Shown here piece by piece: positions 1,293 to 34,353 of a DNA stretch of 55,076 bases; the first letter of the stretch is position 1, and each line of letters begins with the position of its first letter. The notes beneath the pieces are model-generated. The model had not been told where the DNA came from and did no database searches. It saw only the letters and a program-made list of their open reading frames with translations. The position numbers and the translations under genes are program-made. Where the stretch lies: NCBI GenBank assembly GCA_902805735.1, contig CADCTW010000097.1, positions 1 through 55,076 on the forward strand, written 5' to 3'. This stretch comes from an uncultured Gemmatimonadota bacterium (GTDB lineage: Bacteria; Gemmatimonadota; Gemmatimonadetes; Longimicrobiales; Longimicrobiaceae).

Positions 1293-4047
1293 GCGTCACC
1301 TCCAGGGAGCCTGCGTGGGTGCTGTCGGCGTCGAGCGTCCCGTTCCGGGTGGCGGTGGTAGTCAGGCTGCCGACGCGCTCGGTGGTGACGGTGAAGCGCG
1401 TGAGCGGCCCGACCAGCGCGAGCGTCGCCCACATCGTGGTGCGGGCCACGGTGACCTGTCCCGCGAGATCCCAGCTTGTGGTCCTCGCGGCCATGGCTTG
1501 CCCGGCGACATCCCACGAGATGGCGCGCGCGGCGTCCGCTGCCACGAGCACATGCCATGTCGCGGAGCGGGCGGTGCTCGTCTCGGCGAGCGTCTGCCAA
1601 GTGCTTGAGCGGGCGCTCGAGACTTCCGCCGCCACACTCCAAGTCGACGAGCGCGCCGCCGTAGCTTCGGTCAGGACCGCCCATGTCGTGGTGCGCGCCG
1701 CAGTGAAGGTCAACCCGACGCCCCACGTGGTCGTGCGAGCCGAGATTGTTTCCCCGGTGAGCGTCCAGGACGTCGATCGGAGCACTTCGAGGACCGTTGT
1801 CGGCGTGGTGCCGTCCGTGTTCCACGTGGTGGTGCGGGTACTCGTGGTCTCACCCGCGAGGGTCCACGGGGAGGTACGGGGCGCTTCGAGCGATCCGCGT
1901 GTCTCCCAGGTGCTCGTGCGAGCCGTGGTGGCTTCGCTACGCACCGCCCACGTGGTCGAGCGAGCGACGGTGGATTCCCCAGCGACCGCCCAGGACGTCG
2001 CTCGAGCGCTCGTCGCTTCCGCGCGCAGTGCCCACAAGGTGCTGCGGGCCGCCTCGGCGGGCGTGAACAACGTCCAAGTCGATGAGCGGGCGGCGGTGAC
2101 CTCGCCCGTGAGCGTCCAGGTGCTTGAGCGGGCGCTAGTGGTCTCGGCGCGTGTCGCCCACAACGTGGTGCGAGTCGCTTCGGTCGGCGTGAGGACCGTC
2201 CATGACGACGACCGGGTGGCCGCGACCGTCCCCGCCGTGTTCCAAGTCGACGAGCGTGCCGCTTCTGCGCTTCCGCCGAGCGCCCAGGACGTGGAGCGGC
2301 TGGCGGCGACCTCGGAGCTGAGCGCCCAGGACGTCGTACGAGTTGTCGTGGCCTCAGACCGCGTGTTCCAGGTAGTGGTCCTCGCGGCGGTGGCTTCTCC
2401 GGCCAGTGTCCATGTCGTGGAGCGCGACGCCTCGAGACTTCCGCCGATGCCCCACGTTGTGCTGCGTGCTGCGGTCGCCTCGCCCCGAAGTTCCCAGGAG
2501 GAGGTTCGTGCCGCCTGCACTTCCGTCAGCCCGGCATCCACCGACCAGCCCGTGGAGCGTGAGACCTCGACCTCCACGCCGACGCCCCATGACGTCGTCC
2601 GCGCGACCGAAACGAACGAGCCATCATCGAAGGCCCGGGACGCGGATAGCTCTGGTGTCCCGAGCCACTCGGCGTTCAGGTCGTCGCCGTCGAAGTAGTT
2701 GAAGTCCGGCGGCGTGGTCTGAAGCACGTCAGGGCGGACGAGGCCGGAGTCGGTGCGGAAGGTGTAGGTCTGGCCCGCCGTCAGGCCCGTGACCCAGAAC
2801 GCCGAGAACGCCCAGCGCGGCGGCGTGTTCGGGACATTCGACGCGCTCGCCTCTGACGGGAACTCCTCCATCCCCGACACAGACATCTGCTGCCACGCGC
2901 CGGCTGGCGGGTTGGTGATCGCGTAGCCCTTGCCGTACTGGCGGGTCCCCGCGTTCGAGTACGTCTCGATCAGGTTGTAGATCTGCGCCCCGGCCGGTAG
3001 CGCGCTGACGGGCTTGATCGCCGCCGAGGTGATGCTCAAGTCCTGGTTGCTGACCGGCATCGCGGTCCCCAGGCAGTCGCCCGGGTCGCCCAAGTAGAGC
3101 ATCGCGCCCGTGCTGCCCGTGGGAATCGTGACCGACCATTCGGCGCAGGCGCTCCCGTGGAAGGCGTCAGCCGCGGTCCTCGTCGGAGTGAACTTCGTGG
3201 CCGTGTCGACCGTCAGGAACCCGCCGACGATGTTCGCCTGATACCCCGCGAGCCGGGTCGCGTCGGCCTCGACCGACGGGTTGCGGACGTAGTTGACCCT
3301 GACGTCGCGCTTGCGGCTCTGCGACGCGTGCGGCGTGCCAAGCCACTGCCAGTCCTCCATGTCGCCGTCCCCGTACGGCGGGACATCCCAACCCTCACCG
3401 GGCCGCGTCGCGTTGCGGTCAATCAGGTCGTGGCTGGCGAGCTGCGAGTCGAGGTAGACGTTGAACGCGCCCGCCGCGACCGCGTACAAGCCGACCCGGC
3501 ATTTCGTCGCGCCAGCCGGTGCCGTCGCGATCGCCCTGAACTCCCACTCACCCGTGCCCGTGAACCCGGTGGTCGAGTTCGTGAGCTCCCTGGGCGCGTT
3601 GGTCATCGCCGCCGTGCTGATCACGGTTCCGGCACTGTTGAACCACTGCACGACCGGGAAGAGCCCCTGGTTCGTGACCGCACGGATGACCTGGCGGTAA
3701 CCGAGCACCTTGCCCTCCTCGCAAGGCACATCGTTGTGCCAGCAGAACAGCGACCCGGCGCCGATGGAACTGCAACCGACCCGCGCTGACTTCCCGCCGC
3801 GCCACGACCAGTCCGTGACATGGTTCGCGAACGCGCCCGTCCCAGCGACCGACAAGCCATTCGCGCCGAAGACGATCGACGCGGCCTCGAACGACGGCTG
3901 GACGATCAGGTTTGTGTAGAACTCCGCAGGCTGCTTGAAGTCCGTCCGAACCGCCCTCTGTCGCCGCGACGGCGCCAGGACGGTCGGCGGAACGGATACC
4001 TGCCGCCCGTTGTGTGGCGTATTCAGCGGCAGCCGTGTGGCGGGCAC
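1285..4047 (-). CDS. Giant virion surface protein with 28 Arg/Thr/Trp repeats
   Basis: A 920-residue protein. The N-terminal half has two beta-rich, carbohydrate-binding-like modules (about 45-215 and 245-440). Each opens with an N-(L/Y)-(I/V)-x-(Q/N)-P-S-(F/V)-E type line and closes with a D-G-D...W-L-G-T-P line seen in actinophage minor tail proteins. From about residue 480 there are 28 imperfect copies of a roughly 14-residue unit of the form A-A-R-(S/T)-(S/T)-(T/S)-W followed by a variable hydrophobic/polar stretch, then a short non-repeat tail. The gene lies in the head cluster between decoration-type genes and the connector, which suggests a head or neck fibre that touches host or environmental glycans. 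Function is inferred. Confidence 0.7.
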   Translation of the reverse strand: MPATRLPLNTPHNGRQVSVPPTVLAPSRRQRAVRTDFKQPAEFYTNLIVQPSFEAASIVFGANGLSVAGTGAFANHVTDWSWRGGKSARVGCSSIGAGSLFCWHNDVPCEEGKVLGYRQVIRAVTNQGLFPVVQWFNSAGTVISTAAMTNAPRELTNSTTGFTGTGEWEFRAIATAPAGATKCRVGLYAVAAGAFNVYLDSQLASHDLIDRNATRPGEGWDVPPYGDGDMEDWQWLGTPHASQSRKRDVRVNYVRNPSVEADATRLAGYQANIVGGFLTVDTATKFTPTRTAADAFHGSACAEWSVTIPTGSTGAMLYLGDPGDCLGTAMPVSNQDLSITSAAIKPVSALPAGAQIYNLIETYSNAGTRQYGKGYAITNPPAGAWQQMSVSGMEEFPSEASASNVPNTPPRWAFSAFWVTGLTAGQTYTFRTDSGLVRPDVLQTTPPDFNYFDGDDLNAEWLGTPELSASRAFDDGSFVSVARTTSWGVGVEVEVSRSTGWSVDAGLTEVQAARTSSWELRGEATAARSTTWGIGGSLEASRSTTWTLAGEATAARTTTWNTRSEATTTRTTSWALSSEVAASRSTSWALGGSAEAARSSTWNTAGTVAATRSSSWTVLTPTEATRTTLWATRAETTSARSSTWTLTGEVTAARSSTWTLFTPAEAARSTLWALRAEATSARATSWAVAGESTVARSTTWAVRSEATTARTSTWETRGSLEAPRTSPWTLAGETTSTRTTTWNTDGTTPTTVLEVLRSTSWTLTGETISARTTTWGVGLTFTAARTTTWAVLTEATAARSSTWSVAAEVSSARSSTWQTLAETSTARSATWHVLVAADAARAISWDVAGQAMAARTTSWDLAGQVTVARTTMWATLALVGPLTRFTVTTERVGSLTTTATRNGTLDADSTHAGSLEVTHG
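1425..2615 (-). repeat. Tandem 42-bp coding repeat array (28 units)
   Basis: A minus-strand array of about 42 bp per unit within the 1285-4047 gene. Each unit encodes a conserved Arg-Thr/Ser-Thr/Ser-x-Trp core followed by diverged residues. Units are not identical at the DNA level, so the array is old or under diversifying change. It also creates long spurious plus-strand reading frames. Confidence 0.85.
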
Positions 4048-4476: not shown

Positions 4477-4994
4477 CAGGCCGCCGTGTCGAGCGCCACG
4501 CGGAACCCGACGCTGTCCCCGTTGAACGCCGTCGTGCCCGCCAGCACCGTCCGACGCAACCACACCGCCTTGTAGGAAGCCGGCCCAATGTTCCCCAGGC
4601 TGATCCCCGCCGCACGGGTCGTCGGCCGACTGAACGTCACCGACGTCGGCGCGGTCTGCTCGTTCGCGACGACCTGCGCCGCCGTCCCGGCCGCAGCGGC
4701 ATCCGCGCCACCATCGACCGCCGTGTCCGCGCTGCCGCCCTCCGCGTCGAAGAAAAAGGCGACCGCCTCCGCAGTCAGCGTGGCGTGGTTGTTCTGGACG
4801 TAGATGCACCGGTACTCCACGTCACCCGCGGAGTGCTCGGAGCCCGACACGTTGTCCCAGATCGCGTTCAAGGTCGCGTCCGGGATGATTCCGCCACCGG
4901 CCGTGCTCATCGCGCCACCAAGGGAGGCGGCGGGGGACGTGTTGGCCGCCCCGCCTGAGAGGCGGAACGCGACATCTGCGGCAACAATGGGCAC
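4476..4994 (-). CDS. Virion structural protein, decoration-type
   Basis: A 172-residue protein, rich in Ala/Gly and beta-forming segments. It contains an I-W-D-N-V-S-G-S-E line, then Y-R-C-I-Y-V-Q-N, and near the C-terminus K-A-V-W-L-R-R-T-V, a pattern I associate with small phage virion proteins of unknown role. It follows the capsid-gene hairpin at 5027-5055 and has a purine-rich ribosome site just upstream (GAGGAGGGC complementary to 4999-5015). It is probably a capsid decoration or head surface protein; the family is uncertain. Confidence 0.6.
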   Translation of the reverse strand: MPIVAADVAFRLSGGAANTSPAASLGGAMSTAGGGIIPDATLNAIWDNVSGSEHSAGDVEYRCIYVQNNHATLTAEAVAFFFDAEGGSADTAVDGGADAAAAGTAAQVVANEQTAPTSVTFSRPTTRAAGISLGNIGPASYKAVWLRRTVLAGTTAFNGDSVGFRVALDTAA

Positions 4995-5026
4995 GAGGTG
5001 GCCCTCCTCTACGTTTGAAGTCTCAG

Positions 5027-5055
5027 CTCGCGGCGACCCGTAACGGCGCCGCGAG
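5027..5055 (-). terminator. Intercistronic hairpin after the capsid gene block
   Basis: A perfect 9-bp stem (CTCGCGGCG at 5027-5035, CGCCGCGAG at 5047-5055) with an 11-base loop, in the 72-base gap between the 108-residue gene and the next structural gene. There is no T tract on the minus strand, so it could be an attenuating terminator or an mRNA stabiliser that sets capsid mRNA levels. Confidence 0.6.
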
Positions 5056-5066
5056 CATAGGGGGGA

Positions 5067-5393
5067 CTAGGCGGTGCCGACTCCGCCCTTGACGCCGGGC
5101 TCATCACCGATCTGCTCGGTGCGCGGCGCCTGCTCGACCACCACGGCCGTCGGCTCGCCCGGCTTCGGGTTCTCCACCGGCACGACCGTGGAGCCGGGGA
5201 TGAACCGCTCGCGGTAGTCACCGCGCTTCAGGCCAGCACCAGCGGCGTCCTCGGGACCCACGGGCTCCGAGGCGTCCCCGGGGAGCATGGGAACCCCAAC
5301 GTCGGTGGCGTCGTCGCGGGTCGTCACTCCGCCTTCGGTGTGCTCGAGCTTGTCGTTCTGCTTCTCAGTGGCGATGTTCTTCGGCTGGGGCAT
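5067..5393 (-). CDS. Small acidic head-region protein, unknown
   Basis: A 108-residue, charged, Gly/Pro/Glu-rich, probably disordered protein. The start ATG 5393 is chosen because it has a GAGGAG ribosome site 8 bases upstream and overlaps the stop of the upstream 64-residue gene; the longer in-frame extension to 5708 overlaps the capsid gene and is not protein-like. It lies just after the capsid gene, where small head-assembly or decoration proteins are common. No family recognised. Confidence 0.6.
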   Translation of the reverse strand: MPQPKNIATEKQNDKLEHTEGGVTTRDDATDVGVPMLPGDASEPVGPEDAAGAGLKRGDYRERFIPGSTVVPVENPKPGEPTAVVVEQAPRTEQIGDEPGVKGGVGTA

Positions 5394-23955: not shown

Positions 23956-25008
23956 CTACCCGATCTCCCTACGAAGGGCGTGCAAATCGCCACTTTCGTA
24001 GCCGTCGAGCGCCTGCCGCACTCGGGCGCGAGATATAGCTGAGTCTGCATGGCCGTAAACTTCGTTGACCAGCCGGCCCCCGTCGACATGCCCGAGCTGG
24101 CCGGCGACGTCTGCGGCGCTCACCCCGAGCTCCAGCAGGTGCGTAGCCGCATGGTGCCGTAGCTCGTGCCACGCCATCCCCGGGCGCCCCGCTGCGGCCC
24201 TGACGGGACGCCAGTAGTAGTGCAGGGTCGGCTGGAAGAACATGCCGCCACGCGGCGTCGGGAGCACTAGGGGCACGCCGTCCATCCTGGGCATCCGCTC
24301 CACCGCCTCACGAGCCACACGCGGGAACACGATGGTCCGGCTCGCCCCGTTCTTCGGGGTGGTGATGGTCCGGGAGTGACTGTCCGCCGACCGGGTGATG
24401 TCGATCTCGTCGTGCCTGAGGTCGCGGTGCTCGAGCGCGAAGAGCTCCCCGGCGCGGATGCCGGTGTACGCGGCGAGGATGATGCCGCCCGCGAGGATCT
24501 CGCCGTAGCGTCCCCACGTGTCCCGCGCGCACTGCGCGAGGTGCTCGATGTCGCTCGCGGTGAGCCACCCGGCTTTCAGGTCCCTTCGGCCGCGGGACTG
24601 CTCGATGCCGAGGCGCTCCCACGGGTTGCGCTCCAGGAGGCCGGCGCGGCGCGCGTCGTTCCACATGGCGCGGGCGGTGATGAACTGCCCGCGGTGCTGC
24701 AGCGCCCACGCGCGGGCTTCGAGGACGGTGATGCTGTCCATGCGCCGTGGGCCGAAGTCCCGTAGGAGCGGTTGGAGGCGGTAGTGGCGCGTGATGTTCG
24801 TGGACTCCTTGGGGGCCCGGAAGTCGCGCATCCACCGGTCCGCCCACTCCTTCACGGTGACGCCGTGCGTCAGGTCCAGGCGCCGGGCTTCGCTCTCGGC
24901 GGTCAGGGCGTCGCGTTTGAGGCGGTAGGTCCCGACCTGCCGGTTCTTCCCGGTGCCGGGCTCCCGAACTTGCGCGACCCACTTGTCGCCTCGCTTGAAC
25001 ACGGTCAT
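23956..25008 (-). CDS. int: Tyrosine-family integrase
   Basis: A 350-residue recombinase from ATG 25008; the longer frame to 25155 overlaps the upstream gene and looks random. Catalytic set: R185 in T-G-I-R-A-G-E-L, H281 and R284 in H-E-L-R-H, H307 in L-G-H-V-D-G-G, and the nucleophile Y318 in V-Y-G-H-A-D. The N-terminal 60 residues form the arm-binding type domain and 70-140 the core-binding domain. It inserts phage DNA into the host chromosome, showing that the phage is temperate. An excisionase-like HTH lies 870 bases upstream. Its last 33 residues are echoed by the ORF at 22798-22920. Confidence 0.92.
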   Translation of the reverse strand: MTVFKRGDKWVAQVREPGTGKNRQVGTYRLKRDALTAESEARRLDLTHGVTVKEWADRWMRDFRAPKESTNITRHYRLQPLLRDFGPRRMDSITVLEARAWALQHRGQFITARAMWNDARRAGLLERNPWERLGIEQSRGRRDLKAGWLTASDIEHLAQCARDTWGRYGEILAGGIILAAYTGIRAGELFALEHRDLRHDEIDITRSADSHSRTITTPKNGASRTIVFPRVAREAVERMPRMDGVPLVLPTPRGGMFFQPTLHYYWRPVRAAAGRPGMAWHELRHHAATHLLELGVSAADVAGQLGHVDGGRLVNEVYGHADSAISRARVRQALDGYESGDLHALRREIG

Positions 25009-25358
25009 GCCGGCTCTCCGTGCTGGGCATAGATCGTTCGCAGCTCGTCGTCGCTCGGCTGCCCCGGGTCGGGACCGTCCGCGAGGGCCACGGCGTCGCG
25101 GTAATCCTTCCAGAGCGCCCGCACGCGGACCGTCTCGGGGTCGAGGCGGTTGCATCCGCAGTCGCGGTCGAGAGTCGTGCAGGTGTCCATCGCGGTCTGC
25201 ATGCAGAAGTCCTCGATGTCCTCGCGCACATCCGCAAGGCTCACGCCGGCTCCGAGAGCGTCGATGATGTCCTTCGCCTCGCGGTACCGCTCAAGCACCC
25301 AGGACGAGTCGTCCACGAGCGCGGGCATCGACCCGTTCCTGTCAGCTTTCGCGCTCAT
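25005..25358 (-). CDS. Small Cys-rich protein, unknown
   Basis: A 117-residue protein with a helical first half (W-V-L-E-R-Y-R-E-A-K-D-I-I-D-A-L) and a Cys group (C-M-Q ... C-T-T-L-D-R-D-C-G-C) at about residues 52-68. It overlaps the integrase start as ATGA, so the two are translated together, and overlaps the HNH gene upstream by 4 bases. It might be an accessory protein for recombination or simply a passenger. No family recognised. Confidence 0.5.
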   Translation of the reverse strand: MSAKADRNGSMPALVDDSSWVLERYREAKDIIDALGAGVSLADVREDIEDFCMQTAMDTCTTLDRDCGCNRLDPETVRVRALWKDYRDAVALADGPDPGQPSDDELRTIYAQHGEPA

Positions 25359-31494: not shown

Positions 31495-31721
31495 GCCGCC
31501 ATCTCCCGTCCGCGCTTCGATGCCGCGATGCGCTCCCGCGTGTACCGGTGCGGCAACACCCAACCCAGGCGCCTCATGCGGGCCATCTCCACGCTCAACC
31601 GCGTGTCCGACCACCCGAGCGCCGTCGCGATCACGCGGCTCGAGTGACCCGCGAGCCACAAACTTTGGATGAGTTCGCGGCGGTCACGGGCGCGACAACG
31701 CGGACACGACGCAGCAGGCAT
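31491..31721 (-). CDS. Small zinc/HTH DNA-binding protein
   Basis: A 76-residue protein. C-P-R-C (6-9) is followed by an apparent helix-turn-helix (R-E-L-I-Q-S-L-W-L-A-G-H-S-S-R-V-I-A-T-A-L-G-W-S-D-T-R-L) that resembles a homeodomain-like resolvase or sigma-type segment. It lies in the first part of the early operon, where small regulators are expected. Confidence 0.55.
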   Translation of the reverse strand: MPAASCPRCRARDRRELIQSLWLAGHSSRVIATALGWSDTRLSVEMARMRRLGWVLPHRYTRERIAASKRGREMAA

Positions 31722-32236
31722 CAGGACGCCTCCTCAGCAACGATGTGAAGCTGAGGGGCGGCCTGGAGCTTGCCCGGCCTCAGCTTGCTTAGCCGACAAC
31801 CGCAGCGCGCGCAGGGCACGTTCTCAACAAGGCGGTCCTTCGGCATCTGAACAGGCTGCCGGTCACAGTTGGTGCAGCCGACGGTCCCGGGCGCCGGGAA
31901 CCAGTAATGCTTCGCCTGTTTGGCAGCCTCTCGGGCGGCGCGGCCGGCCTCCCAGAGGCGTTCACGCTCAGCCCGGCCTTCTGCTCGTTCGAGGACCATC
32001 GCTTCGGTGACCGTCGCTCCGCGCACGTTGTGCAGCGGCTTCTCGTTGCTGATGGCGACCGCTTCGGCTAGTTCCGCCTCAAGCTTGGATCCGAAGTGCT
32101 CGACGTCCACACGAGCCACCTGTGTCCACCAACCCTTGGAGGACGCGTGCTGGCTGAGGCGCTGCATGGCCGTGTTCGATACGCCGATGTAGAGGAGCGT
32201 CCCCTCGGCGTCCCTCAACCGATAGACGACGCTCAT
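31721..32236 (-). CDS. GIY-YIG endonuclease with C-terminal zinc site
   Basis: A 171-residue protein from ATG 32236. Residues 2-80 are a GIY-YIG-type nuclease domain: V-V-Y-R-L-R (VYR in place of GIY), L-Y-I-G-V-S-N (YIG), Q-H and then E (E-A-E-L-A-E-A) with N-x-x-P-L-H-N-V. The C-terminal part has a helix and Cys pairs (C-T-N-C, C-A-R-C-G-C), probably zinc-bound DNA contact. It may be a homing endonuclease or act on host or phage DNA early in infection, since it is the second gene of the early operon. Confidence 0.8.
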   Translation of the reverse strand: MSVVYRLRDAEGTLLYIGVSNTAMQRLSQHASSKGWWTQVARVDVEHFGSKLEAELAEAVAISNEKPLHNVRGATVTEAMVLERAEGRAERERLWEAGRAAREAAKQAKHYWFPAPGTVGCTNCDRQPVQMPKDRLVENVPCARCGCRLSKLRPGKLQAAPQLHIVAEEAS

Positions 32237-32472
32237 GCGGCCTCCTCGACCGGGCCGTAGAACGCCTCCATCGGAAGGCCGAAGATGTCGGCCAGTCCCG
32301 CCAGGTTCGTGTCGTTCGGTCGCACGACGCCGCGCTCCCAACGCGACACGGCAAGCTGATCGACTCCGAGACGAGCCGCGAGTTGCCGCTGAGTCATCCC
32401 GCTCTGGTCACGCGCCACCCTCAGGTGATGGGCGACACGCTCGGATAATGTGGACGTTCCTTGACTAGCCAT
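32233..32472 (-). CDS. cro: Cro-like HTH regulator, first early gene
   Basis: A 79-residue XRE-type protein: T-Q-R-Q-L-A-A-R-L-G-V-D-Q-L-A-V-S-R-W-E-R-G-V (about 27-49) is the helix-turn-helix. It is divergent from the repressor gene and starts 23 bases from the nearest possible start of that gene. Its promoter probably has -35 TTGACT and -10 TATGGT with 17-base spacing, which would start the transcript 2-3 bases before ATG 32472, so the mRNA is close to leaderless. It would repress the lysogeny promoter and start the lytic programme. The name is by position and fold. Confidence 0.8.
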   Translation of the reverse strand: MASQGTSTLSERVAHHLRVARDQSGMTQRQLAARLGVDQLAVSRWERGVVRPNDTNLAGLADIFGLPMEAFYGPVEEAA

Positions 32473-32510
32473 CGAGTAGGCACCATAGTAGCCGAATGCC
32501 CGCTAGTCAA
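32461..32510. promoter_or_regulatory. Symmetric divergent promoter/operator of the immunity switch
   Basis: A 9-base inverted repeat, TTGACTAGC (32461-32469) and GCTAGTCAA (32502-32510). Each TTGACT is the -35 box of one promoter: plus-strand -35 32461-32466 with -10 CATAGT 32484-32489; minus-strand -35 32505-32510 with -10 TATGGT (plus 32482-32487). Both spacers are 17 bases. The -10 boxes overlap by four bases, so only one polymerase can bind at a time. The repeat arms are also codons 2-4 or 3-5 (Ala-Ser-Gln) of each ORF, so an operator, a promoter and coding sequence coincide. Confidence 0.75.
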
Positions 32511-32567
32511 GTGCCGTCGTGTGGATTGCCCACGACAAGACGTGCCCAACTTGCAAGGTTGCGCCTC

Positions 32568-32990
32568 ATGGCCAGCCAGCACGCAGCGCGCATCGGAGCG
32601 CGCATCCGCGAGCGGCGCGAAGAGCTGCACCTCACGCAGAGTCAGCTAGCCCGTCAGATGCCGGGGAGCATCGACGTCAACCAAGTGTCCCGGTGGGAAC
32701 GAGGCGTGCACAAGCCCCACGACGACACGCTCGCCGAGTTGGCCCGGATCCTCGAGGTCGACATCAGTTACTTCTACGGCGACGAGCCGGCGCCCGGCAC
32801 CGCAGACCTCATGAGCGCTCTCGGCCCGCCAGTCAACGGCGCAACGTTGCTAGAGCGCAAAGTTGACCTCATGCTTCGCAGCCTTGACGTCCTGCTTGAA
32901 TCTCGCCAAGACGAACCGGTCGTGGCCGAGCTACTTCACGATGTGCACGCCGTCCTAGACGATGCGCTGGGGGACGATCCGCCTACGTGA
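32568..32990 (+). CDS. Immunity repressor, XRE family
   Basis: A 140-residue repressor from ATG 32568 (M-A-S-Q-H), with AAGG nine bases upstream. If the predicted leaderless start at ATG 32496 is used, it gains 24 residues. The HTH is T-Q-S-Q-L-A-R-Q-M-P-G-S-I-D-V-N-Q-V-S-R-W-E-R-G-V, followed by an oligomerisation part (L-L-E-R-K-V-D-L-M-L-R-S-L-D-V-L-L). It resembles the Cro-like protein at 32233 in the HTH and in the S-R-W-E-R-G-V line. It lacks a LexA-type autocleavage domain, so induction must use another route. Confidence 0.8.
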   Translation: MASQHAARIGARIRERREELHLTQSQLARQMPGSIDVNQVSRWERGVHKPHDDTLAELARILEVDISYFYGDEPAPGTADLMSALGPPVNGATLLERKVDLMLRSLDVLLESRQDEPVVAELLHDVHAVLDDALGDDPPT

Positions 32991-33279
32991 ACCAGCGGGC
33001 TTCTAGCGCGTCGGCGATGCCGTCGAGAGCCCTCGCGGCCCGGGAGCCGTCGCGCCTCGCGGCGAGCGCCCGGAGCTCGTCGACCGCCGTGCGCACCGCC
33101 GCATCGTCCAATGCGTCGTCGTCGGCGTGGAGGTCGAGCATCGCGGCTCTGGCCGGATCAACCACGCCGATAAGGGCGCGCAACTGTCGCTCTACGGTGC
33201 TCATCTCATCCGGGTTGGTGGACACGTCGAGCATCTTCACACGAAGGCTGATCCTGGCGCAATCCACTTCGCTGACCAT
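32983..33279 (-). CDS. Small helical protein in the lysogeny block (minus strand)
   Basis: A 98-residue ORF on the minus strand, convergent with the repressor (8-base overlap of 3-prime ends). It is helical and acidic (T-V-E-R-Q-L-R-A-L-I-G-V-V-D-P-A-R-A-A-M-L-D-L-H, then R-T-A-V-D-E-L-R-A-L-A-A-R-R). ATG 33279 gives the full frame; M-S-T-V at 33204 is a possible shorter start. The plus-strand frames here look random, which favours this one. It may be transcribed antisense to repressor readthrough. No family recognised. Confidence 0.5.
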   Translation of the reverse strand: MVSEVDCARISLRVKMLDVSTNPDEMSTVERQLRALIGVVDPARAAMLDLHADDDALDDAAVRTAVDELRALAARRDGSRAARALDGIADALEARWFT

Positions 33280-33319
33280 TCACGCAACTTGTGCCTTATC
33301 GAACAGGGAGCCCTAACCA

Positions 33320-33955
33320 ATGAAGAGCGTGTTGAAGGTTGCGCTGGGCGTCATCCTTGGGCTCACCGTCCTGGTCGTGGGGTGTACGGCCCTCTTAGCC
33401 GCTGGCGTCGATACCCCGACCGACGAGCCGGAGAGCGCCGTCAACACGGAAGCGGAGAGCAGCGCTCCTGCTCCCGCTGAGAAGACGGACGCGTGCGGGT
33501 CTCGGGCGACCGACGACTGCACCCCGAGCGTCGGCCCGAACGAGAGCGTCCGAGTCGACGCGCTCAGGTGGACCATCGAGGACGTGAAGACCGCCAAGCA
33601 GCTCGGCGACCAGGAGTTCGGGTTCGGCGCCAAGGCCGACGACGTGTTCGTGGTCGTGACGGTGAACGTGCGGTCGCTGAAGAACGAGTCGGCGACGCTC
33701 ACCAGCGAAGCGGTGCAACTCGAGAGCCGTGACGGGGCGAAGTACGACGCGGACTCGGAGGGCACCACCGCCGCGCTCGGTGAAGGTGAGGACCCGCTGT
33801 TCCTGGAGGATCTTGGGCCCGATCAGACCACGACGAGCCGGGTTGTGTTCGATGTCCCGCAGCGCGTGCTGGACGGCAGGCCGCGGCTTCGCTTCAACGA
33901 GCTGGGGTTCGGGAGCACGCACGGCTACATTCGGCTGCCGAGCACAAGCGGCTAG
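33320..33955 (+). CDS. Lipoprotein-like secreted protein, DUF4352-type fold
   Basis: A 211-residue protein with GGAG upstream. Residues 5-21 are a signal/membrane segment ending L-V-V-G-C (Cys22), a lipobox-like site. A Glu/Ala/Pro-rich spacer follows (about 30-60), and then a beta-sandwich of about 130 residues (V-F-V-V-V-T-V-N-V-R-S-L-K-N-E-S, typical of DUF4352-like extracellular domains). It lies on the plus strand just after the repressor, so it is probably expressed by the prophage and displayed on the host surface, for example to block superinfection. That role is inference. Confidence 0.7.
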   Translation: MKSVLKVALGVILGLTVLVVGCTALLAAGVDTPTDEPESAVNTEAESSAPAPAEKTDACGSRATDDCTPSVGPNESVRVDALRWTIEDVKTAKQLGDQEFGFGAKADDVFVVVTVNVRSLKNESATLTSEAVQLESRDGAKYDADSEGTTAALGEGEDPLFLEDLGPDQTTTSRVVFDVPQRVLDGRPRLRFNELGFGSTHGYIRLPSTSG

Positions 33956-33957
33956 CC

Positions 33958-34353
33958 GTGCGACGCTTGGCTATGGCTCTCGGGTTGAGTGTGCTGGTGG
34001 CACCGTCACCCGCGGACGCGTCGCACCTTCGTGTCCGCTGCGAGCTCGACGCGAACGCCACGCCGTCGGTGACCTACCTCTCGGCCAGTCGCGGCATCGG
34101 CTGCAACACCGCCAACGTCCTAGCGGGCTCCCTGTCCGAGCAGGCTGGACGCCGGTTCCCGACGCCGCTGCCACGCCGGTTTCGCAAGACGTGGGAGATC
34201 GACCGTGAGCAGGGCACCAGTGACTTCGATCGCTTCGCGTGCCGCAATCGAGTCGCCCGTGTGGTGGAGCCGGAGCGTCGCTTCACGCGGCAGGTCGTGA
34301 CGTGCACGAGCCGTCAGGGGGCGAGCTTCCGGGCGAGCATGACCATGGCGTGA
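33958..34353 (+). CDS. Small secreted Cys-containing protein, unknown
   Basis: A 131-residue protein from GTG 33958, two bases after the lipoprotein stop. Residues 1-22 are an export signal (L-A-M-A-L-G-L-S-V-L-V-A-P-S-P-A-D-A then S). The mature part is basic with four Cys (C-E-L, G-C-N, A-C-R, T-C-T) that may form disulfides, and strand-like segments. Co-oriented with the lipoprotein, the two look like a prophage-expressed surface/secreted pair. No family recognised. Confidence 0.6.
   Translation: MRRLAMALGLSVLVAPSPADASHLRVRCELDANATPSVTYLSASRGIGCNTANVLAGSLSEQAGRRFPTPLPRRFRKTWEIDREQGTSDFDRFACRNRVARVVEPERRFTRQVVTCTSRQGASFRASMTMA

Follow-up and report, generated by a model that had tools for sequence, protein, structure and literature searches.

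A conserved 50-bp predicted bidirectional promoter element between two divergent HTH genes as a candidate lysis/lysogeny switch of a temperate phage

The lysis/lysogeny control region of phage lambda is laid out with separate promoters and three operators, unlike the compact element described here. Separate divergent promoters are also described, in the available account, for Staphylococcus phage 13. Bidirectional promoters are defined, in the available text of two reports, by divergent transcription starts located 7-25 bp apart, with 10, 18 and 23 bp as the common spacings (PMC12825309, PMC10268837). According to the available portion of the first of these, basal firing of five E. coli bidirectional promoters is too weak to bring polymerases into competition, and regulators sitting on the DNA are displaced without stopping the transit of polymerase (PMC12825309). 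The locus reported here is a 50-base stretch that appears to choose between dormancy and killing of the host, and its layout recurs in seven further virus sequences of only distant similarity.

The window, i.e. the whole stretch of 55,076 nt that was analysed, represents one whole contig (C97) of a 5.79-Mb genome in 254 contigs. It carries genes for a terminase, portal, tail sheath, DnaB helicase, HNH nucleases and a tyrosine integrase, as well as a Sak4-like protein, which identifies it as a temperate contractile-tailed phage or prophage. The integrase gene (23956-25155, minus strand), which is in agreement with the temperate setting, is not adjacent to the switch and lies >7 kb from the repressor gene, and integration-dependent immunity of the type known from phage BPs was rejected on these grounds. 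No exact overlap was found between the contig ends (15-299 bases tested). The genome contains two matches to WhiB, which among 14 control genomes was found only in Corynebacterium, pointing to an actinobacterial phage host if the contig is correctly binned; a temperate phage of an actinobacterium is the most likely identity.

At 32461-32510, the window contains a symmetric element, 50 bp in length, predicted to act as a bidirectional promoter and putative operator, the arm-to-arm length being the same in the seven relatives. The predicted plus promoter, that of the repressor-like gene, is composed of a -35 box TTGACT (32461-32466), a 17-bp spacer and a -10 box CATAGT (32484-32489, plus strand), and the predicted minus promoter, that of the Cro-like gene, of TTGACT (32510-32505), a 17-bp spacer and TATGGT (32487-32482, minus strand). 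The two -10 boxes share positions 32484-32487, and both are poor (4/6 each); both -35 boxes are near-consensus. The latter are provided by the TTGACTAGC arms of an inverted repeat, inside the first codons of the two divergent helix-turn-helix (HTH) genes: the Cro-side arm (32460-32471, plus strand) combines the -35 of the repressor promoter with codons 1-4 of the Cro-like gene, and the repressor-side arm (32500-32511, minus strand) combines the -35 of the Cro-like promoter with codons 3-5 of the repressor frame. In the Cro-side arm, positions 32462-32471 form an imperfect dyad, TGACTAGCCA, the final two bases of which are supplied by the Cro ATG. Assuming six bases between -10 and +1, the predicted plus start coincides with the A of ATG 32496, and the predicted minus start falls at 32475, 3 bases ahead of ATG 32472, with 21 bp between the predicted divergent starts and 23 bp between the two ATGs. 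All coordinates of the initial annotation were found correct when the sequence was re-checked, and its 17-base spacers and four-base overlap of the -10 boxes are exact; its inverted repeat indeed supplies both -35 boxes, although the exact repeat is not nine bases but 10 nt long (CTTGACTAGC at 32460-32469 and 32502-32511), with looser symmetry extending to 17 bases at 82%.

Inverted repeats of such length are common in the window, which would favor an explanation whereby promoter-like matches and a short repeat simply coincided in ordinary intergenic DNA. Nine-base inverted repeats with spacers of 20-60 nt number 42 (mean 30.9 and maximum 56 in 40 shuffles), and ten-base repeats number 15 (mean 9.5, maximum 19); the inverted repeat by itself is not above chance in 40 shuffles of the window. 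Between 31000 and 34500, the only promoter-like sites are the two described above (mean of 50 shuffles, 0.1). The same rule finds only two such sites in the whole window, with a shuffle mean of 2.5, and their number is therefore not unusual; an overlapping antiparallel promoter pair, however, was seen in 0/60 shuffles of the window. We also looked in the window for additional copies of the arm in the manner of L5-type stoperators, asymmetric repressor sites of which many are scattered over the genome. While TTGACTAGC occurs exactly twice, and seven times with up to one mismatch (seven being reached by 12/100 shuffles), the ten-mer CTTGACTAGC with two or fewer mismatches occurs 42 times, with a shuffle mean of 27.6 and a maximum of 41 (0/100 shuffles reach 42). 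This slight excess possibly corresponds to weak scattered sites or to codon usage.

The strongest argument against chance is provided by conservation in relatives. With the two 9-base arms as a pattern, 7 matches were obtained in viral contigs; at one of them, L048, a homologous pair of HTH genes diverges from arms that again span 50 bp. A protein alignment search, from which 80 Cro-like loci were kept, revealed three members among the 12 loci inspected (L072, L073, L074), with L073/L074 displaying the arms TTGACTAGA/TCTAGTCAA. The pattern TTGACTAGN34CTAGTCAA yielded 14 matches in viral contigs, including 6 homologous ones, and freeing of the inner arm bases yielded 23, including 8 homologous ones, adding L186 and L188 with their TCG-type arms. 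The two earlier patterns fix arm bases, and the freed-arm pattern still requires the -35 cores as well as the -10 (TATnnT) and the ATG of Cro; L166 first came up in the protein search (as L073), so that its geometry and arms constitute an independent result. L072 and L152 are the contig of L048, L073/L074 are L166/L174, and L174, which matches L166 at all of the 2000 bases compared, was left out of the counts, leaving eight distinct members: the window, L048, L166, L168, L170, L176, L186 and L188, with all relatives being uncultivated viral contigs. Their Cro-like proteins are 38-64% identical and their repressors 30-53%, with L186 and L188 being most closely related to one another.

The arm pair can also be found at unrelated places, as would be expected by chance: there is no homologous HTH pair at 6/7, 8/14 and 15/23 of the viral pattern matches, nor at any of the 9 matches in the genome collection (genome_contigs), 8 of which are from Amycolatopsis. 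In these eight Amycolatopsis loci (L155-L157, L159-L163), a TTGACTAGC/GCTAGTCAA pair measuring 48-51 bases end to end precedes an ABC transporter gene, and a PadR-like gene is in view at 7/8 of them (names by eye), so that an unrelated regulator seems to be using arms of the same bases. Nevertheless, the fact that homologous gene pairs whose proteins are 30-64% identical share the 50-bp layout, together with the paired arm changes described below, appears to have largely refuted the chance explanation, which we regard as extremely improbable.

A DNA search of 31500-34000 against INPHARED phages gave no match. In the same collection, tblastn gave weak HTH matches in 4, 221, 28 and 209 records, and the two regions that were opened (Bipper and Lunatic) have divergent-gene gaps of 224 and 503 bases, not the 50-bp layout. 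Single-protein scans of viral contigs found no relative with the repressor or with Sak4, and three distant loci with the Cro-like protein. Of the 61 genomes covered by genus-to-order searches, 18 and 34 contained matches, which were weak except for the window itself. The terminase at E 1e-20 found only its own match in 154 genomes of the order, and the pattern TTGACTNGN34CNAGTCAA only its own in 395 genomes of the phylum, with 3 matches for a reversed control pattern. A repressor profile at E 1e-12 recovered, from 394 genomes of the class, its own match and two of the same genus. The latter two (L195, L196), each from a different genome, are near-identical host HTH proteins with repressor-profile E-values of 1e-14 to 1e-15; these are single HTH proteins, with no second or divergent HTH frame caught by the motif filter.

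In all eight members, the element measures 50 bases arm to arm, the -10 boxes overlap by four bases by position, and each -35 box resides within the first codons of the other ORF, as the initial annotation had claimed for the window. The last T of the repressor -10, which is fixed by no search pattern, is present in 8/8, and the Cro-like ATG adjoins the arm in 8/8, although the search pattern fixed this for some members. The arms are equal over nine bases in 5/8 (window, L048, L166, L170, L186) and over eight in 7/8, and their inner bases change in pairs (A/A, T/T, TAG to TCG), with the dyad centre inverted in one arm of L188. Six members have arms of the TAG type and two (L186, L188) of the TCG type, and the putative operator can be read as a dyad, TGAC-TA-GnCA or TGAC-TC-GTCA, with dyad centres 38 bp apart. 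Its CA is found in the Cro-side arm in 8/8, because it is provided by the Cro ATG, and in the repressor-side arm in 3/8. The shared geometry and the paired inner-arm changes support the proposed symmetric switch, with an HTH gene of the Cro/C1 type diverging on either side.

It may be argued that the arms are bound by just one of the HTH proteins, which would make the element an autoregulated bidirectional promoter with no two-protein toggle, and that the other HTH protein acts elsewhere. As the core is the same in both arms, there is little in their sequence to suggest opposite preferences, and the slight excess of weak sites elsewhere would also fit. The recognition helices of both proteins, however, change together with the arm type, Ser being replaced by Gly/Asn in the Cro-like protein and by Tyr in the repressor between TAG- and TCG-type members (by eye), as would be the case if the arms were read by both proteins; since L186 and L188 are closest kin, the difference may represent a single event. 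The two proteins of the window are, moreover, 42% identical in the HTH, and we consider action of one protein only to be rather doubtful. A third palindromic operator upstream of the Cro-like -35 was sought and rejected, as 41 to 200 of 200 shuffles match each member's best palindrome.

The Cro-like gene (32233-32472, minus strand; 79 aa, HTH_3 E 1.1e-14) has no start codon earlier than ATG 32472. This ATG is located nine bases after the -10 in 8/8 members, a distance fixed by the pattern for those from the freed-arm search, and a ribosome site therefore does not fit. Its stop codon overlaps the ATG of the next gene, a GIY-YIG endonuclease in the window, as ATGA (32233-32236; 11803-11806 in L048), which suggests translational coupling in a leftward operon. 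In three relatives, Cro is followed on the same strand by recombination genes, namely an Erf-like annealing protein and an exonuclease in L174, exonuclease VIII in L188, and an exonuclease in L170; L168 has a terminase and L048 a tape measure protein. Among 10 tested proteins, 3 had no PHROG match and one belongs to a family of unknown function.

The repressor-like gene (32496-32990, plus strand; 164 codons, HTH_3 E 4.5e-12) has its ATG at the predicted +1, six bases after the -10. A shorter reading of 140 codons (32568-32990, plus strand) begins at an internal ATG, with nine bases between it and an AGG at 32556-32558; both lengths agree with the 164- and 140-residue forms in the initial annotation. 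Pfam finds only HTH families and a weak MqsA match in this protein, and an SOS-cleavable lambda-like repressor was rejected, the self-cleaving C-terminal peptidase domain being absent. Foldseek gave no PDB match at E <=0.001, with PlcR, BldD, ComR and P22 C2 as the best; solved relatives of both HTH domains include the P22 C2 and 434 repressors. Downstream of the repressor on the same strand, the window encodes a DUF4352 protein with a lipoprotein-like start (33320-33955; Pfam E 3.5e-13), and, as judged by eye, the repressors of L176 and L168 are likewise followed by a small ORF that looks secreted (4826-5284 and 2620-3177, respectively).

Two candidate start codons in the repressor frame leave room for an alternative in which the element is a genuine switch but its repressor mRNA carries a leader: transcription would start near 32496, giving a leader of 72 nt, only ATG 32568 with its AGG would be used, and the codon at +1 and the open 24-codon frame would have no function. 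In line with this, the internal start, 72 nt downstream at codon 25, is kept in 8/8 members (ATG in 7, GTG in 1) and the AGG at codon 21 in 7/8. In codons 6-24 of the extension, pN is 0.502 and pS 0.535, no better than in a shifted frame (0.503 and 0.533), and codons 26-45 have pN 0.334 and pS 0.568; importance of the amino acids in the extension is thus without support from substitution patterns. AlphaFold, run on the 8-row alignment, predicts one helix for residues 12-43 and no confident structure for residues 1-11. Set against these observations is the presence of a start codon at the predicted +1 in 4/8 (ATG in the window, L168 and L170, GTG in L166) and at +4 in 2/8 (GTG in L186, ATG in L188), for which the background, counting ATG/GTG in two codons, is 5.4% per member (P ~8e-6 for 5/7 relatives, with the window left out). 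Moreover, the extension has an open frame and constant length in 8/8, whereas the shifted frames have stops in 4/8 and 8/8, the latter in part because of the TAG in the arm. Overall, an exclusively leadered repressor mRNA seems unlikely, albeit worth serious consideration, and synthesis of two repressor forms (164 and 140 residues) is plausible. The near-leaderless starts predicted initially agree with start-codon placement for the Cro-like gene in 8/8 and for the repressor in 6/8, but not in the other 2/8, L048 and L176 having no start at +1 or +4.

An RNA hairpin at the repressor 5' end was rejected, as the consensus fold over 8 sequences is empty. GACAA in repressor codons 13-15 (32534-32538 in the window) is kept in 7/8 members though the region is otherwise variable; neither a palindrome nor an RNA fold accounts for it in the 8 members. 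Host DNA was scanned over 278 kb, in 20 stretches with 145 ORFs treated as genes. A TAnnnT motif precedes 6/1485 candidate starts by 4-9 nt, which in this crude, low-power scan is not above control codons, and Shine-Dalgarno motifs 4-6 bases before candidate starts are about twofold enriched over control codons. This argues weakly against common leaderless genes with a TAnnnT -10 in the host.

Taken as a whole, these observations lead us to assign a probability of roughly 0.75 to the reading that the element controls lysis and lysogeny in a temperate phage through a 50-bp bidirectional promoter, the arms of which act as operators as well as -35 boxes, with leaderless or near-leaderless mRNAs predicted. 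Two antiparallel promoters would share part of one -10 in a near-symmetric element, so that polymerase bound leftward would produce the Cro-like mRNA, with a leader of 0-3 nt, and, downstream, the early genes, and polymerase bound rightward would produce the repressor mRNA, with translation beginning at the 5' AUG (164 aa) and perhaps also at AUG 32568 (140 aa). Each arm would serve at once as the -35 of one promoter, as coding sequence of the other gene and as an operator, an imperfect TGAC-TA-GnCA dyad bound by one or both HTH proteins. With repressor on arm 32500-32511, the Cro-like promoter would be closed, and the Cro-like protein, or excess repressor, on arm 32460-32471 would close the repressor promoter. 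As the arms share their core, any preference of the proteins must come from the flanks, and the Cro-side arm, having the fuller dyad, is predicted to fill first. The initial proposal that polymerases exclude each other, and that a repressor bound to an arm would block the other gene's start, is weakened by the five E. coli bidirectional promoters, which in the available text barely compete and have their bound regulators displaced (PMC12825309); with basal firing low and regulators displaced there, occupancy of the -35 operators is likelier to be the main control than polymerase exclusion or roadblocks. The bistable design proposed along with it is likewise weakened, as arms with the same core are insufficient alone and the two proteins must prefer different arms.

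It is possible, though we put it at somewhat below an even chance, that these loci form an undescribed family of phage switches that would decide between lysis and lysogeny by the direction in which a single polymerase faces on a 50-bp mirror element, with -35 boxes doubling as operators and early codons, mRNAs beginning near start codons, arms evolving jointly for immunity specificity, and a second start giving two repressor forms. If so, one bidirectional promoter would make up the entire control region of a phage switch with two genes, joining these recently described promoters to the classic lysis/lysogeny question. The eight variants with two operator types would offer a natural series in which polymerase orientation, operator occupancy or both may hold a bistable state, and starts set by promoter geometry would make a clean system for leaderless translation.

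There is precedent for each ingredient, namely bidirectional promoters, the leaderless cI and cro of PY54, and the overlapping promoters of EcoRV. Our literature search, with subscription papers mostly outside its reach, found neither a phage switch whose promoters share a -10 nor one whose repressors are leaderless, and we do not claim absence from print. Like the window, telomere phage PY54 has divergent repressor and Cro genes, and its mRNAs are both leaderless by RACE, those of the window leaderless or nearly so by prediction; unlike the window, PY54 as described in the available text has several separate promoters in a wider region, Cro acting on one operator, and no shared -10 (PMC4488713). 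Leaderless regulator mRNAs with a divergent partner gene are also exemplified, in the available account, by lambda cI from PRM and by paaR2/ydaS of an E. coli O157:H7 cryptic prophage, where the starts are 97 bp apart as compared with 23 bp between the ATGs of the window (PMC8630535). The EcoRV and CfrBI restriction-modification systems share with the window overlapping divergent core promoters, coupled transcription and an HTH controller, but they serve restriction-system control with one controller, and the EcoRV C transcript is, in the text available, not leaderless (PMC5333194). Mycobacteriophage BPs, an actinophage with divergent repressor and Cro-like genes at Prep/PR, resembles the window, with its putative operators, in having palindromic operators at both promoters and short and long repressor forms; in the portion of the report available, the short form differs at the C-terminus through attP inside the repressor gene, the integrase is adjacent, and an operator lies between -10 and -35 of PR, unlike in the window (PMC4557955). 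In promoter structure, the window resembles prokaryotic bidirectional promoters, in which antiparallel promoters share -10 bases and admit one polymerase orientation at a time; the predicted 21 bp between starts in the window falls within their 7-25 bp, although not among the common spacings, and, by the available descriptions of these promoters, the window differs from them in that its near-consensus -35 boxes form inverted arms, probably operators, both placed inside coding starts (PMC12825309, PMC10268837).
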